NCBI RefSeq assembly: GCF_019646055.1
Contig: NZ_JAESFE010000002.1
Location: forward strand, 1-64,000
Direction of reading: 5' to 3'
Length of the DNA: 64,000 nucleotides
Origin: Sodalis sp. CWE
GTDB taxonomy: Bacteria; Pseudomonadota; Gammaproteobacteria; Enterobacterales; Enterobacteriaceae
Below, in pieces: positions 26,839 to 56,320 of this stretch (the first letter of the stretch is position 1; every line of letters starts with the position of its first letter). A program made the position numbers and the translations under genes. The notes below the pieces were generated by a model. The model saw nothing but the letters and a program-made list of their open reading frames with translations. It was not told where the DNA came from and did no database searches.

Positions 26839-27954
26839 ATGAAAAAAGTTGGCTTTATCGGTTGGCGCGGTATGGTTGGTTCAGTACTAATACAACGTAT
26901 GATTGAGGAAAATGATTTTGATACTATTTTCCCCATGTTTTTTTCTACTTCTCAATACGGTCGATTAACTCCATTTTTAATGAAAGGTCGCCGAAGTGTA
27001 TTGCAAAACGCGCGAAATTTATCAGCATTGAGCAGTTTAGATATCTTAGTTACTTGTCAAGGAAATAGTTACACTAATGAAATTTACCCAAAGCTTCGGA
27101 AAATAGGATGGCAAGGTTACTGGATTGACTCCTCTTCATCTTTACGAATGAAAGACGATGTAATCATTATTTTAGATCCTATCAATCAAACTGCAATTCA
27201 GAAAGGAATAGATCGCGGTATTAAAACTTTTGTGGGAGCAAACTGCACTGTAAGCCTCATGCTGATTCCGTTAGGCGGTTTGTTTGAGCAAAGGCTGATA
27301 GAATGGATATCAGTAGCCACCTATCAAGCAGCATCTGGTTGTGGCTCACGTTGTATGCGTGAATTGCTAGTACAAATGGGCCAAATATATGGCAAGGCAA
27401 ATAAATTACTGCAAGATCCAGCATCATCTATTTTGGACATTGAGCGCCAAATCACCAGTTTGGTACAAAGTCGCGATTTGTCAACAGAAAATTTTGGTGT
27501 TCCTTTAGCTGGTAGTTTAATTCCTTGGATTGGAGAAAATCTAAAAAATGGTCAGAGCAGAGAAGAATGGAAGGGTCAAGCTGAAACAAATAAAATTCTT
27601 AATTCTTCGCATCATGAATTGGTATTCGTGGATGGTCTATGTGTACGTATAGGCTCTCTTCGTTGTCATAGTCAGGCACTAACGCTAAAATTAAAAAAAA
27701 ATATTCCAATAGCAGAAATTGAACAACTTCTTTCATCTCATAATAACTGGGTCACTGTAATTCCTAACGAATTCGAATTATCTATTCGAGAACTAACACC
27801 AACAGCAGTAACTGGCACGTTAAGAACGCCTATTGGTCGTTTAAAAAAATTGAATATGGGGCCAAAATATCTTTCAGCTTTTACTGTCGGTGATCAATTA
27901 TTGTGGGGCGCAGCAGAGCCTATTCTTCGAATGATACGTCAACTAACTCGTTAA
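26839..27954 (+). CDS. asd: aspartate-semialdehyde dehydrogenase
   Basis: Asd reduces aspartyl phosphate to aspartate semialdehyde, the branch point to diaminopimelate/lysine, threonine and methionine. The 371 residues (E. coli 367) have the NADP-binding start [13 protein letters not shown] and the nucleophilic cysteine in [10 protein letters not shown], about residue 136. A further cysteine-containing stretch, [15 protein letters not shown], replaces the enteric GGGAR-like motif, a moderate divergence. DHRMA-like drift is not seen. With dapF it supports diaminopimelate supply. Confidence 0.96.
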
Positions 27955-30582: not shown

Positions 30583-31212
30583 ATGGAATATTTTGTTATA
30601 CCTGTAACGGCATTTAATCAAAATTGCTCTCTAGTTTGGTGCAAGGAAACAGGCAATGCTGTAATAGTGGATCCCGGTGGAGAAGCAAAACGTTTACAAA
30701 AAAAAATAGCAATGCTTGAAATAGTAGTTAAGGAGATATGGCTGACTCACGGTCATTTAGATCATGTTGGTGCCGCAAGCGAATTAGCTAAATTTTATAA
30801 GGTTCCTATTATAGGACCACATCATAATGAGAAAATTTTAATGACAAGTTTACCTTGGCAATGTCAAATCTTTGGTATGAAAATTATTCAACCCTTACTT
30901 CCAGATCGTTGGTTGCAAAATGGCGAGATTTTAAAAATTGGAAAAACATCGTTTCATGTCTTACACTGTCCTGGCCACTCTCCTGGACATGTGGTTTTTT
31001 GGAATAAAGAAAAAAAATTTATTTTAATGGGTGATGTTTTGTTTAATGGTAGAATTGGTTGTACTAATCTTCCTGGAGGTAATATATCTACCCTACTAGA
31101 ATCAATTCATCGTCAAATTCTTCCATTAGAAGACAGCACTGTTTTTTTACCGGGGCATGGTTTAGAATCAACATTAGGTAATGAAAGGAAAACTAATCCT
31201 TTTTTGAAATAA
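30583..31212 (+). CDS. gloC: hydroxyacylglutathione hydrolase, type II glyoxalase GloC (YcbL)
   Basis: This metallo-beta-lactamase-fold hydrolase splits S-lactoylglutathione in methylglyoxal detoxification. The 209 residues (E. coli YcbL 215) include the metal motif THGHLDH (His56, His58, Asp60, His61), the later histidines in HCPGHSPGH and FLPGHG, and the bridging Asp in LMGDVLF. It matches YcbL better than GloB because it starts FVIPVTAFNQNCSLVWC and lacks GloB's C-terminal substrate-binding domain. As in E. coli it neighbours asnS, with aspC and ompF lost in between. Confidence 0.9.
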   Translation: MEYFVIPVTAFNQNCSLVWCKETGNAVIVDPGGEAKRLQKKIAMLEIVVKEIWLTHGHLDHVGAASELAKFYKVPIIGPHHNEKILMTSLPWQCQIFGMKIIQPLLPDRWLQNGEILKIGKTSFHVLHCPGHSPGHVVFWNKEKKFILMGDVLFNGRIGCTNLPGGNISTLLESIHRQILPLEDSTVFLPGHGLESTLGNERKTNPFLK

Positions 31213-32862: not shown

Positions 32863-33771
32863 GAATAAACTTTATTCTTTATAAGTAAATAATTAAAGGT
32901 TTTTAATGTTTTGAAAAATTAATCTATTCTAGAAATAGAAGTTCATAACAATTATTTTTAGGCTGAATAATCAATGTATTTTACGTACACTAAACACTAG
33001 TTATCAATAAACAGTATTAATATTAATATGTTAAAAAAATAAAATATAGGAAGCTTTTTCTTAACTTTAGAAAAAAATTTTAAATGCTTTTAGATAAAGA
33101 GTAAATGCCAAATGCAACCTTTTAATTTATTTAAATATTTATCTAAGTTAAAAAATTTAACTATTTATTTTATAAATGGCTAACAATAGTTTGTTTCTAA
33201 AAACTTTTATTTAAATTATGAACTAGTGATTTTTTTATGTTAAAAATAATACTTTTGTAATAAAAATTGTAAATTTTTTATTGTTAGAGTTTAACAAATT
33301 TTGCTAGAGTAAAGTTATCGTCATTGGATTAAGTATGCATGACTAGATTTTTTACTTAAATTAGCTCAACTTTTTAGTAAAAAAAATTGTACAGTCATCT
33401 CCTCCTCGTAAGAGGAGATAAGCAAGCAGTGTCTACTTCAAATATTCATATTCAATAATATTAAATTATATGTGGTATTTTCATCAAAATCTTCTTGCTA
33501 AAGAGTGCTAATAGTTAGATATAATTAATAATGAACTTTTCAAACTAAAACTAATTTTCAATAACTTATATAAATTTCAAAAAGAGATCACATTTAGAAT
33601 ATACACTTAAAAATCAACACTTAATGGATTAACTTTCCAATTTTTTGAAAAAAAATAATTCTCTTTAAGAAAAATTTTTAATCATACATCATGCATGCTA
33701 TTCTTAAATAAACCTAACAGACTATACAGTTTAACCTACTATTTATTTTTTTATAAAATGCAATTTTTTAA
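32863..33771. other. 909-nt gene-free region asnS-ung, rearrangement junction
   Basis: No gene on either strand. It joins the E. coli 21-min block (gloC-asnS) with the 58-59-min block (ung-grpE-nadK-smpB). It contains an 8-bp hairpin at 33397-33419. Promoters for both divergent genes must lie here but cannot be told apart from AT-rich background. Confidence 0.55.
33397..33419. repeat. 8-bp hairpin ATCTCCTC/GAGGAGAT
   Basis: This perfect stem with a 7-nt loop is unusually GC-rich for its surroundings and belongs to the family of C/T-A/G hairpins scattered through the spacers. It is over 350 nt from either flanking gene. Confidence 0.6.
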
Positions 33772-34470
33772 ATGAATAAGAAAATTACTTGGCAGGATGT
33801 TCTTGCAAAAGAAAAAAACCTTCCTTATTTTCAAAAAATTCTGTTGTTTTTATTCAGAAGGCGCGCATCAGGAATAATTGTTTATCCGTCAGCCAAGGAT
33901 ATTTTTAACGCTTTTCGATTTACAGAATTAAACAAAATAAAAGTAGTTATTCTAGGACAAGATCCGTATCACGGTCCGAATCAAGCTCATGGTTTTTCTT
34001 TTTCTGTTAAGCCAGGAGCACCTATCCCTCCTTCTTTATACAATATATATCGAGAACTTTCTAAAGATATTCCTAATTTTATCATTCCCAATCACGGCTG
34101 TTTGCAAAGCTGGGCAAACCAAGGTGTAATGCTACTTAATACAATACTAACAGTTGAGGCTGGAAAAGCCTATTCTCATGGTAATATAGGTTGGGAAATA
34201 TTCACCGATAAAGTTATCAAAATCCTTAATGCAAACCGTAAAGGTATCATTTTTTTATTATGGGGTGCACATGCCCAAAAAAAGAAAATCTTCATAGATT
34301 CAAAACGTCATTATGTGCTTACTGCACCTCATCCGTCACCATTGTCTGCTCATCGAGGATTTTTTGGATGTCGTCATTTTTCTAAAGTTAATTTACTGTT
34401 AAAACAACAAGGAGAAAAAGAAATTAATTGGATACCAATTCCGATACTTACCTATCACGATTTCTTATAA
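33772..34470 (+). CDS. ung: uracil-DNA glycosylase
   Basis: Ung excises uracil from DNA, the first step of base-excision repair of cytosine deamination. The 232 residues (E. coli 229) carry the catalytic water-activating Asp64 in GQDPYHG, the uracil pocket Asn in [11 protein letters not shown], and the minor-groove loop [17 protein letters not shown] with the catalytic His. All family motifs are intact. Retention is notable in a genome drifting toward A+T. Confidence 0.97.
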
Positions 34471-34737
34471 AAAGTTTTCTTTAAAAGAAGAAAAACATAT
34501 CTTTTGATATTTATATAGATGTATCCACTATATGATATAGACTTTTAAAAAAATTTGAACTTTTATTTTTTTTTGTAATTTTAACCACTAATGCTCTGGT
34601 AGAGATTAAAGAATGGGAATGAAAATAATTCAATGCTAAATCTATAGAAAAGCTACTCACTAGCCGCCTATGTCAGTATGACGGTTCGGTAGTAAACTGC
34701 TTTTTTCTTCTTTTTCTATATTTTCAAAGAAGAAAGA

Positions 34738-35382
34738 TTAGCAGTTTTTAGCTTTTGAAACGACAACCATTGCTGGACGAACAAGACGACCATTAAGAAT
34801 ATATCCTTTTTGGATTACCATTGTTACCTGATTAGGTTCATGTTCACTAGATTCTAGTATTGTCATTGCTTGATGAATTTCCGGATTGAATGGTACATTC
34901 GCATCTTTTATTACATTAAGACCAAATTTTTGTACTACATTTAATAAAGACTTAAGTGTTAGTTCAATTCCTTCAATTGTGGATGCCAATTCGATTTGAG
35001 ATTTATCCGACATATCTAATGCTCGTTCTAGATTATCTATAACGGGTAATAGCTCAATAATGAAACGTTCTAATGAAAATTTATGTGCTTTTTCAATATC
35101 CTGTTCGCTACGACGACGCACATTTTCAATTTCCGCTTTAGACCGCAATACGATATCACGTTCGCGTTTTTTTGCTTGGATTAGCATTGCTTCTAATTCA
35201 ATAATACGTTCGTCTCTTGAGTCTAAAGCAGTTGCCATTTTGGAAGCATGTGTATCGGAGGCGTTTTGTGAATCTGTAAAATCAGCCGACTCAAGTTCTG
35301 TTTTTACTTGCTGTTTTTTTTCATTTTTATTTTCTTGTTCAATTTGTTCATCATTGTTACTTTGTTCTTTATTGCTTGACAT
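34738..35382 (-). CDS. grpE: GrpE, nucleotide exchange factor for DnaK
   Basis: GrpE releases ADP from DnaK in the Hsp70 cycle. The 214 residues (E. coli 197) comprise a low-complexity acidic/Gln/Lys N-terminus of about 60 residues (longer than usual), a long coiled coil (about 65-130, [20 protein letters not shown] onward) and the C-terminal beta domain with the signature around [18 protein letters not shown]. It is divergent from nadK as in E. coli. A heat-shock-like promoter lies upstream. Confidence 0.95.
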
Positions 35383-35425
35383 AAGTCTTCTCCGCGATTC
35401 AGAAATAGTTCTCGCTAATTCTTAT

Positions 35426-35454
35426 ATTATAAGGATAAATAGCAGTGATTCAAG
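35426..35454 (-). promoter_or_regulatory. candidate sigma-32 / sigma-70 promoter of grpE
   Basis: On the minus strand CTTGAA (35454-35449) is followed after 14 nt by CCTTATAAT (35434-35426), close to the heat-shock consensus CTTGAA-N13-15-CCCCATNT. The same bases also give TTGAAT-16 nt-TATAAT, a good sigma-70 promoter. It lies about 45 nt before the grpE ATG, and GGAGAAG at the start of the gene is the ribosome binding site. Confidence 0.5.
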
Positions 35455-35520
35455 AGGAAGGACAATCTATAACAAAGCTCGTAAAATTACATTTGAAATC
35501 AATAATTAAATTAACAATTA

Positions 35521-36405
35521 ATGACCAAATTTTTTCATACTGTCGGAATAGTCGGTTATCCACGTCATTCTCATGCCTTAATTACACATGAAATGCTATT
35601 TTATTGGCTAAATAAAAAAGGGCATCGTGTAATAATAGAACATCAAATTGCAAACAATTTAGCTTTACATAAAGTGGCTGACACTGGTAGTTTAGCTGAA
35701 ATTGGTCGGCAAGCTGATTTAGCGATTGTGATTGGTGGAAATGGTAATATGTTAGGTGCAGCTCGTGTGCTAGCGCATTATGATATTAAAGTAATAGGTA
35801 TTAATCACGGAACTCTTGGCTTTTTAACTGACCTTGATTTAAAGGATTCATCTTTATTAAAGTTGAATAATATATTGGACGGTCATTTTTATAGTGAAAA
35901 ACGTTTTTTGTTAGAAGTTAAAATCTTTCGAAAAAATGTATGTACCCGATGGAGTAGCGCTATTAATGAAGTTGTTTTACATTCTAGAAAAATAGCTCAT
36001 ATGATTGAATTTGAAGTTTATATTGATAATGTTTTTGCTTTTTCTCAACGGTCTGATGGTCTTATTATTTCTACCCCAACAGGATCTACAGCTTATTCTC
36101 TTTCTGCTGGCGGTCCGATACTTACTCCATTAGTAGATGCTATTGCTCTAATAGCGATGTTTCCACATACTCTCTCTTCAAGACCGTTAGTTATTAACGG
36201 TAACAGTTTAATACAATTGAAATTCCCAAAACTCACATCGAACTTAGAAATTAGCTGTGACAGTCAAATTGGCTTGTTAGTTCAAGATGGAGAAGAAGTT
36301 TTTATTCGTCGAAGTGACTACTATCTCGATTTAATTCATCCAAACGATTACAATTATTTTAGTATCTTAAGTAGCAAGTTAGGCTGGCTAAAGAAATTTA
36401 TATAG
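35521..36405 (+). CDS. nadK: NAD kinase with altered GGDGN motif
   Basis: NadK phosphorylates NAD to NADP, an essential step with usually no backup. The 294 residues (E. coli 292) align end to end, from [21 protein letters not shown] to [10 protein letters not shown]. The second half ([24 protein letters not shown]) is nearly identical to enterics. But the hallmark GGDGN reads GGNGN: Asn74, codon AAT at 35740-35742, replaces the aspartate regarded as catalytic in the family. Nearby INRGNLGFL has become INHGTLGFL. The frame is intact and otherwise under clear constraint. There is no clear ribosome binding site before the ATG. Confidence 0.95.
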
Positions 36406-36819
36406 ATCAACTTCTTTTATTTTGATATTGATAGCGATCAATTCAAATTTGATGTCTAAAAATAAATATAAACTAAGAAAATTGAAATTCTTTGTAAGAA
36501 GTTCTGACGAATCTCAGTGGATCAATGCTTATTTATAGAAAGAGCGGCCTATTCAACAATAATTTAAAAAAAATCTATATAGCTTTATTCGATTTAAGTA
36601 AAATCCCCATTCTATTCTGAAATAGAAATCTAAGAGGTAATGCCATATTTAGACACTAATACTTATTCAAATCTTAAGTGAGGATTAAAAAAAATCTTTT
36701 TAGTAAAAATTTTAATTTGGAATAATAAAAAATATCTATAATAATTATTTAATAAATCGATATTTCTTTTCGAGGAAAAGATTCTATTCATTAAATGAAA
36801 AATTTAACATAAGAGAACG
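36406..36819. other. spacer nadK-rnfH
   Basis: 414 nt where E. coli has recN and bamE. No remnant of either is recognisable. The two flanking genes are convergent. No convincing terminator is seen. Confidence 0.5.
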
Positions 36820-37107
36820 TTACTTCTTTTTTTTATGATTTATATGCTGACGGCGTAGGTCTTTTGCACTAATTCTTAATGGTCGATAGATTTCAACTCT
36901 ATCTCCATCATTTAATTTATCTTTTAACTGAGTAAGTCTTCCAAAAATGCCAACTTTATTAACGGAAAGATTAATATCCGATCTTATTAATAAAAGTCCA
37001 GAAGCGTGAATTGCCTCTTCAACAGTGCTCCCTTTTTTTAAAACTAATTGATGTACATATTGTTTTTCTGGTAAAGCGTAAACAACTGTAACTCGAACTT
37101 TTGGCAT
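36820..37107 (-). CDS. rnfH: RnfH family ubiquitin-like protein
   Basis: This is a small beta-grasp protein of the RnfH (UPF0125) family whose function is unproven; despite the name it is not fixed to the Rnf complex in E. coli. The 95 residues (E. coli 96) show the family pattern [23 protein letters not shown] at the start, [26 protein letters not shown] in the middle and a basic tail. Its usual operon partner ratA is missing, but the position next to smpB is the ancestral one. Confidence 0.9.
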
Positions 37108-37596
37108 AATAAATTTTTTAATTTTAAAAAGTTTCTTTTTTAGTGATAATTTTATTGTCTGTCACTAAAAGATAATGTTTATGTTAATCTCAACAAACTA
37201 CAAATTTTTTGGTAGAACTAAAACTTTTTTTAAATTTCTAACGATTTTTAAATATTTAGCATTTCTTCTTCTTAAGAAGAGAATTCTATTTTGAACAACA
37301 ATCTTTTAAAGATAAAAAATGAATTTTCTTTCTACAAAAGAAATTTTATAGATTAAAATTTATGATAAATAAGTATAATATATCTTATTAAAGCAATTAA
37401 ATATTAAAAATTAATTTTTATGATGATCAAGACGAAAAATATAAACTGATAAATTCAATTTATATTTATTAAATCCTATATAAACGACATTTATTGATAC
37501 TTAATAAGTTGACACTTGCTCAAAATAAAAACTGCTATTTGCTAAATAGCATTTATTTTTCTATTTTAAAGTCAGACATATTAAATAACGTTTGTT
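37108..37596. other. spacer rnfH-smpB
   Basis: 489 nt between divergent genes, the site of lost ratA. A C/T-A/G hairpin TCTTC-TTAA-GAAGA is at 37267-37280. No gene is visible. Confidence 0.5.
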
Positions 37597-38070
37597 ATGA
37601 AAAAGAAAAAAAAATCGACAGAGATTATTATTACTCAAAATAAAAGAGCTAAGCATGAGTTTTATATAGAAAAAGAACTTGAAGCAGGACTCGTCCTATT
37701 AGGATGGGAGGTTAAGTCACTTCGATCTGGTCAAGTAAATATTAGCAATAGTTACGTATTAATTAAACATAGAGAAGTCTATCTTTTTGGCGCTGTCTTT
37801 CAGCCACTAATAGTATCTACTTCCCACGAAGTTTTTGATCCCGCTCGAACTCGAAAGATTTTGCTTAAAAAGCATGAAATAAATTTCTTATTTAACTGTA
37901 TAAATCGTAAACGTTATACAGCAATAGCTCTGTCTCTTTTTTGGAAGAGTTCTTGGGCAAAAATGAAAATTGGTGTAGCCATGGGAAAAAAAAAGTATGA
38001 TAAACGAATAAAAATAAAAGAACGAGAATGGCAAATAAATAAAAAACGAACCACAGACTATTTAAGCTGA
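37597..38070 (+). CDS. smpB: SmpB, tmRNA-binding protein
   Basis: SmpB binds tmRNA and places it in the A site of stalled ribosomes. The 157 residues (E. coli 160) form an OB-type fold with HEFYIEKELEAGLVLLGWEVKSLRSG near the N-terminus, and a basic C-terminal tail (YDKRIKIKEREWQINKKR) that reads the empty mRNA channel. The poly-lysine start KKKKKS replaces the enteric N-terminus. Its RNA partner is encoded at 29773-30161. Confidence 0.97.
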   Translation: MKKKKKSTEIIITQNKRAKHEFYIEKELEAGLVLLGWEVKSLRSGQVNISNSYVLIKHREVYLFGAVFQPLIVSTSHEVFDPARTRKILLKKHEINFLFNCINRKRYTAIALSLFWKSSWAKMKIGVAMGKKKYDKRIKIKEREWQINKKRTTDYLS

Positions 38071-38128
38071 AAAAAAGCTTTTTTATCTTGGAACCAATAA
38101 GACTAAACAGATCTTTTTTCAAAATTAA

Positions 38129-38156
38129 TTAAAAGCTTATAATAAGCAGCTTTTAA
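38129..38156. terminator. hairpin between convergent smpB and kdsB
   Basis: A perfect 9-bp stem TTAAAAGCT/AGCTTTTAA has a 10-nt loop, which itself can refold (GCTTA/TAAGC). It lies 58 nt after smpB and 28 nt beyond the kdsB stop on the opposite strand, so it could serve both transcripts. Confidence 0.45.
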
Positions 38157-38184
38157 GTACAAACATACTTAAAAGTAAAGGTAT

Positions 38185-38940
38185 CTAAGTTTTTAACAAA
38201 CGAGCTTTTTCTAATTCTGATGCAGTATTCACACTTACTCCAGATATTTTCTTTTCTATTGCGACATAAATCTTTTCGCCATACCATAAAATTCGTAATT
38301 GTTCAAGCTTTTCAATTTTTTCTAATGGACTAGTTGACCAATTAACATAACGACGTATAAAATCTACACGATAGGAATATATTCCTATATGACGCAATAA
38401 CAATAATCTATGGATGGAAGATTTAGATTGACGAGAAAATTTTTTTTGGCTCCATGGAATGGAGGAGCGGGAAAAATATATTGCATAATTATACGAATTT
38501 ACAACCACTTTAACTATATTTGGGTTAGATGCTTCTTTTAAAGTTGTAATCGGCACTGCTAATGTTGTAATTTTTCTTTGCGGGTCTTCTATTAGATCAT
38601 TTGCTACTCGGCGGATAAATTTTGGTGATATGAAAGGCTCATCACCTTGTACGTTGACAATGATTTGATTATCAGGAAAGTTACGCTGGTCAATTACTTC
38701 TCTTAGACGTTCAGTGCCGGATAGATGTTCCTTACTAGTAAGACATGCCTCACCACCAGCAGTGTGGACAGCTTCTATTACTTTCATATGGTCAGTAGCG
38801 ACAATAACTCGATCAGCACCAGAAGCCTGTGCCTGTTCCATTACACGTACTACCATAGGTTTCCCATTAATATCAATTAACGGCTTACCTGGCAATCGAA
38901 TTGCTGCAAATCGAGCGGGAATGATCACTATAAAACTCAT
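38185..38940 (-). CDS. kdsB: CMP-KDO synthetase
   Basis: KdsB activates KDO (3-deoxy-manno-octulosonate) with CTP for transfer to lipid A. The 251 residues (E. coli 248) start with the nucleotidyltransferase motif [16 protein letters not shown], then [11 protein letters not shown] with the metal-binding aspartate, and RHIGIYSYR. It is the last gene of the msbA-lpxK-ycaR-kdsB cluster, 10 nt after ycaR. Its presence with lpxK and msbA indicates that LPS inner core is still made. Confidence 0.97.
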
Positions 38941-38950
38941 TGTTTTAACC

Positions 38951-39169
38951 TTATTCTATTGATGATTCATGATTAATAGTTTTAGTAATTAAATCAGCAG
39001 TTTTTATATCGATAGATCGTGCCTTGTTCTTTAAAAGAACAGGAATGCCATTACGAAATGGGTAAGCTAGTGCATCTGATTTACAAATTAACTCTTGATG
39101 TTCTTTATCATAATAAAGTTGTCCAGTACACACTGGACAAGCAATAATTTCCAATAAGCGATAATCCAT
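38951..39169 (-). CDS. ycaR: YcaR, Trm112-like zinc-ribbon protein
   Basis: This is a small protein of the UPF0434/Trm112-like family, function unknown. The frame is open from 39247, but the ATG at 39169 is preceded by GGAGA and begins [18 protein letters not shown], which aligns with the E. coli start ([14 protein letters not shown]). This gives 72 residues (E. coli 60). The CPVC pair and a later cysteine (LICKSD) are kept. It is sandwiched between lpxK and kdsB as in enterics. Confidence 0.92.

Positions 39170-53710: not shown

Positions 53711-56320
<2,610 letters not shown>

Follow-up and report, generated by a model that had tools for sequence, protein, structure and literature searches.

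Asparagine in place of the catalytic GGDG aspartate in the NAD kinases of Sodalis sp. CWE and three other reduced genomes

Main finding

The window, a stretch of 64,000 nucleotides from Sodalis sp. CWE (contig NZ_JAESFE010000002.1), encodes a NAD kinase (NadK) carrying asparagine in place of the GGDG aspartate, which is described as the residue activating the NAD 2'-hydroxyl. The observation is correct and more general than one genome, as the same swap has occurred four times in open, full-length genes. This natural experiment leaves two readings: the aspartate matters less than has been believed, or a host can take over the supply of NADP before the gene shows any sign of decay. The change from Asp to Asn, which is near-isosteric, is probably tolerated and would leave a weaker but adequate NadK.

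Gene, codon and genomic context

The nadK gene is an intact open reading frame (ORF) of 294 amino acids in the ORF list, with no internal stop. Its in-frame triplet AAT encodes Asn74 and converts GGDGN to GGNGN, just as the sequence-only reading had proposed. NCBIfam NF002893 scored 464 bits on the protein against a cut-off of 386, and Pfam PF01513 and PF20143 scored 69 bits (cut-off 25.5) and 131.7 bits (cut-off 23.7), respectively. Membership of the NAD kinase family by descent rests on the two Pfam domains, the catalytic GGDG signature being replaced by GGNG. Among solved structures, its nearest chains are 4hao and 2an1, two NAD kinases that have Asp at the column of residue 74. The NE/D motif and conserved region II are kept (N149, E150, D179, T187, T190 and Y192). 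We read the protein as a normal ATP-type NAD kinase of enterobacteria in which asparagine has taken the place of the GGDG aspartate.

The sequence-only reading had also singled out INHGTLGFL in place of INRGNLGFL. The substitutions are real (H96 and T98) but uninformative, and R96H/T98 was rejected as part of a special motif since, in the reduced-genome set, 27 of the 77 rows with Asp74 have a residue other than Arg at site 96. A search for a second NAD kinase, which that reading had recommended, found none: PF01513 gave a single match across the whole genome, namely the window nadK.

Table 1. Coordinates of nadK, its notable residues and other genes in the window
Feature	Position	Strand	Basis
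nadK, NAD kinase, 294 aa	35521..36405	+	ORF; NF002893, PF01513 and PF20143 over cut-off; sole PF01513 match in genome
AAT codon, Asn74 in GGNGN	35740..35742	+	Sequence; Asp in 109/109 relatives; 78 Asp and 4 Asn in 82 rows
H96-G97-T98 of INHGTLGFL (most relatives INRGNLGFL); varies elsewhere too	35806..35814	+	Sequence, alignment
N149-E150, NE motif, unchanged	35965..35970	+	N149 in 84/84 and E150 in 85/85 covering rows
D179 of RSDG, unchanged in window	36055..36057	+	Asn in four other reduced genomes
A212, Pro in relatives; possible co-change with Asn74, lead only	36154..36156	+	Alignment
grpE-type neighbour	34738..35382	-	ORF; name from position and sequence; matches ORF beside nadK in Sodalis locus L032
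trxB, NADPH-type thioredoxin reductase, GGGNTA and HRRSTFR	54638..55585	+	Family search, motifs
asd, aspartate-semialdehyde dehydrogenase, NADPH user	26839..27954	+	TIGR01745, 600 bits against cut-off 402.9

The source genome comprises 797,418 bases in two contigs, and the G+C content of the window is 27-36%. Protein matches put the genome close to Sodalis, its NadK being 76% identical to that of Candidatus Sodalis sp. SoCistrobi, and the genome's RpoB groups with rows that include close matches of the Sodalis group in the RpoB tree. From genome size, composition and relatives we infer the life style of an insect symbiont. The sampled genome sets held no other genome of the window's genus.

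Behind nadK, the Sodalis locus L032 carries ORFs of 553 and 143 amino acids, with two more of 94 and 128 amino acids on the opposite strand. Only the 94-aa ORF was matched in window positions 33001-39000, where those of 553, 143 and 128 amino acids had no counterpart at E 1e-4 or better; by E. coli gene order the absent ones would be recN, bamE and ratA. As the downstream neighbours have been lost from the window (36406-37596), nadK was retained while its neighbours disappeared. Elsewhere in the window, a GloB-like protein of 209 amino acids (30583-31212) scored 107 bits against a cut-off of 200.8; it is short, divergent and possibly decaying.

The NADPH-type enzymes TrxB and Asd, which had been named as consumers of the cofactor, were located in the window by profile and motif searches. 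Expected motifs are present in DapF, Asd, Ung, TrxB, UvrD, LpxK and CorA of the same genome, and a genome-wide loss of catalytic residues was rejected as an explanation on this ground. Rough motif patterns gave no match for SerC and AroH, for two of three patterns for AroA and for one of two for KdsB.

Distribution of Asn74

All 109 NadK relatives aligned (rows L003-L111, in which a species may occur twice) have Asp at the column of residue 74. DNA patterns were then matched against larger sets; they detect GG.GNM only, and Asn with a different next residue is missed by them in larger genomes. Within this scope, GGNGNM matched in 14 of 392 genomes of the family, inside NadK only in the window, G184 and G073, and GGDGNM in 322 of the same genomes, counted irrespective of the gene in which the pattern fell. 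GGNGNM gave five matches among 295 genomes drawn from the order, of which only that of the window lies within NadK.

The reduced-genome set consisted of family genomes up to ~2.4 Mb plus five small genomes of other families in the order, and NadK was matched in 57 of 80 and 29 of 50 of them (86 of 130). The resulting alignment has 87 rows including the window, one genome contributing two fragments; the split genes of G021, G152, G210 and G377 are represented by their best fragment alone, and in both G152 and G210 a GGDGNM match also lies within the nadK stretch. Site 74 is covered by 82 rows, with 78 Asp, four Asn and no other residue. The Asn carriers are the window, G184, G073 and G007, the last having the motif GGNGS, which is invisible to the GGNGNM pattern. 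In all four the gene is open, full length and free of stops. An alignment of related NadK had been suggested to see whether Asn is fixed in the lineage; the 109 aligned relatives uniformly have Asp, and the recurrence of Asn in G184, G073 and G007 means that the change is not private to the window.

Every one of the four Asn codons is AAT, and the Asp codons are 69 GAT and nine GAC. That the replacement is always Asn is weaker evidence than it may seem, because one G-to-A substitution, of a type favoured by AT-rich genomes, turns GAT into AAT. At another position, Asp179 of RSDG, Asn was observed in G184 (L130), G155 (L166), G146 (L175) and G249 (L203), G184 having Asn at both sites 74 and 179.

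Independent origins

A tree of RpoB was built for 50 genomes, and the five rows without intact NadK were left out of the trait scoring. Four independent Asp-to-Asn changes are required on this tree (45 rows scored), which is a quick, single-gene tree with SH-aLRT support only and with 20 of 47 inner branches weak. G184 forms a pair with the Asp-bearing G015 of the same genus (SH-aLRT 97), G007 pairs with G204 (SH-aLRT 97) and G073 with G147 (SH-aLRT 84). The window falls within a group of 16 rows (SH-aLRT 99), whose 13 other scored members all have Asp.

Constraint on the gene

The ratio of NadK to RpoB terminal-branch lengths was obtained with the RpoB topology fixed and site 74 masked, after three rows with very short branches had been dropped. 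Among the 39 Asp carriers the median was 1.98 (interquartile range 1.63-2.57). The window has the lowest ratio of all 43 rows (1.07), G184 is average (2.17, rank 26), and G007 (2.98, rank 39) and G073 (4.01, rank 43, the highest) evolve fast. Compared as groups, Asn and Asp carriers did not differ in this ratio (Mann-Whitney p=0.41). Besides residue 74, the numbers of changed sites among 78 near-invariant ones are two in the window, three in G184, five in G007 and 10 in G073, the last being the highest among 46 rows. No variation was seen at G72, G73, G75, N95, G97, N149, E150 and D247 in the rows of the reduced set that cover them. The genes of the window and G184 thus look normal or tight, and those of G073 and G007 look relaxed.

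The window nadK does not resemble a pseudogene, in view of its stop-free frame of full length, its few changed near-invariant sites and its low branch ratio. These data uphold the view of the sequence-only reading, in that the frame is intact and the gene looks selected.

NadK loss and TrxB retention

In 23 of 80 small genomes NadK was undetected by the family alignment, and PF20143 was silent in the same 23; as a control, PF20143 matched the six NadK bearers run alongside and 12 of 14 control genomes. The enzyme can therefore be dispensable. In addition, the nadK copies of G021, G152 and G210 are broken.

TrxB scored over the threshold of its family in all four Asn carriers, 15 of 18 NadK-less genomes tested, all three genomes with broken nadK and 19 of 22 Asp carriers. 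The NadK-less genomes without TrxB over cut-off are G087, G100 and G125, that of G125 with an internal stop codon. Those lacking NadK yet bearing TrxB (L269-L283) are G006, G010, G030, G033, G076, G096, G106, G111, G112, G115, G133, G150, G154, G173 and G407. Such genomes pose the question of their NADP source. As TrxB outlives NAD kinase, NADP should be derived from outside or from some other enzyme, unless TrxB there uses another donor. The earlier proposal that NADP may come from a host or partner is made plausible by these counts.

The arginines of the HRRxxxR motif of TrxB bind the 2'-phosphate. All of them are present in seven of 21 Asp, three of four Asn and five of 19 lost or broken genomes, G139, G087 and G100 being left out of this table as they have no TrxB over cut-off. 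No association was found between the arginine state and the NadK state (Asp and Asn against lost or broken, Fisher p=0.52), and the idea that TrxB turned to NADH in genomes deprived of NadK was rejected accordingly. The arginines are incomplete in 29 of 44 TrxB rows (window 54638-55585 and L266-L308) regardless of NadK state, and these TrxBs may have become less strict in their cofactor. A search for a TLC-type nucleotide importer gave no match in 14 genomes, but 14 control genomes were equally silent.

A probably tolerated asparagine and rival readings

Retention of activity with Asn74 could be accounted for as follows. Asn74 would retain the shape of the aspartate and the hydrogen bond holding the NAD 2'-hydroxyl, and phosphoryl transfer would need no strong base from the protein: the proton would go to the phosphates of NAD or ATP, in a substrate-assisted catalysis. 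The outcome would be a slower enzyme, still sufficient for a symbiont that grows slowly and requires little NADP. Residual activity, replacement of the base and low NADP demand are the parts of this account that we infer. According to a review (PMC8553519), the 2'-hydroxyl gives up its proton to Asp-45 in the Listeria NAD kinase, for which a substrate-assisted catalysis involving the NAD diphosphate has also been proposed. The same review describes the equivalent Asp-85 of the Mycobacterium NAD kinase as vital by mutagenesis, which speaks against tolerance.

A tolerated change is favoured over a dead enzyme because reduced genomes acquired it on four or more occasions, and because a single near-isosteric swap recurs with the other core residues unhit, whereas dead enzymes would be expected to bear varied lesions. 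The fold evidently accepts Asn, since chain 2i2f of Listeria NADK1, with Asn at this site, was crystallised. Retention of TrxB in all four carriers also speaks for tolerance, as do the low branch ratio of the window gene, the average one of G184 and the few near-invariant sites changed in these two; the relaxed appearance of G007 and G073, two of the four, speaks against it.

The main rival holds that the Asn form has little or no activity left and that the gene is beginning to be lost, with NADP supplied by the host or by another symbiont living alongside. An inactive NadK could be survivable, because so many small genomes have none detectable, and the broken copies, the TrxB persisting in genomes with absent or broken nadK, and the fast evolution of NadK in G073 and G007 all agree with such decay. 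This explanation is nevertheless unlikely, though well within consideration: by branch ratio, no NadK among the 43 is more constrained than that of the window and G184 lies mid-range, Asn is the sole replacement at site 74 with the other core residues never altered in the covering rows, and no uptake route for NADP was identified, the TLC search being uninformative in view of its silent controls. Persistence of activity is thus somewhat favoured over decay with outside NADP, although persisting activity, compensation and outside NADP are options that sequence alone does not separate.

It is also conceivable that the gene encodes Asn74 and the protein regains Asp. Asn-Gly pairs deamidate fast and spontaneously, Gly follows Asn in all four carriers (Asn74-Gly75 in the window), and a part of the enzyme might become Asp or iso-Asp and be active. 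If this were true in at least four symbiont lineages, the active site would be completed by protein ageing and not by the gene. The idea is improbable, as the main product is expected to be iso-Asp, which may not work, the Listeria chain 2i2f was deposited as Asn, and precedents looked for in the literature were not found. Compensation by a second change, as the sequence-only reading had envisaged, is very improbable, and no convincing residue emerged for it. Site 212 is Ala in the window and G007 and Ser in G073, and among the 77 Asp carriers it is Pro in 71 and Ser in six, so that Ala or Ser is found in three of four Asn carriers against six of 77 (p=0.0037); non-Arg at site 96 occurs in four of four against 27 of 77 (p=0.019). 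Both p values are uncorrected for ~290 columns and ignore relatedness, neither site survives such correction, and G184 retains Pro212, leaving P212A/S as a lead only. An error of sequencing or assembly that made GAT into AAT is scarcely credible: the base in the window rests on assembled sequence and not on raw reads, but the remainder of the gene is clean and the same codon change recurs in three other genomes of different genera, for which reason error was judged unlikely as the sole cause.

Comparison with known NAD kinases

The window NadK shares family, length and all other motif residues with enterobacterial NadK (NF002893; 2an1, 4hao), and differs from it in having GGNGN for GGDGN, plus H96, T98 and A212. 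With the proteins of G184, G073 and G007 it has in common Asn at site 74, the codon AAT and an open, full-length frame. Their origins are separate from that of the window on the RpoB tree, and they differ further in the GGNGS of G007, the additional D179N of G184 and the fast evolution of G073 and G007. Searches of the literature, by title or abstract opening, found no paper on the Asp-to-Asn change or on NadK loss in these symbionts, and a term search of the Blochmannia paper PMC4389277 gave no occurrence. Listeria monocytogenes NAD kinase 1, chain 2i2f, likewise folds and crystallises with Asn replacing the GGDG Asp, but that chain is a laboratory mutant, as deduced from adjacent wild-type chains, of a distant family member.
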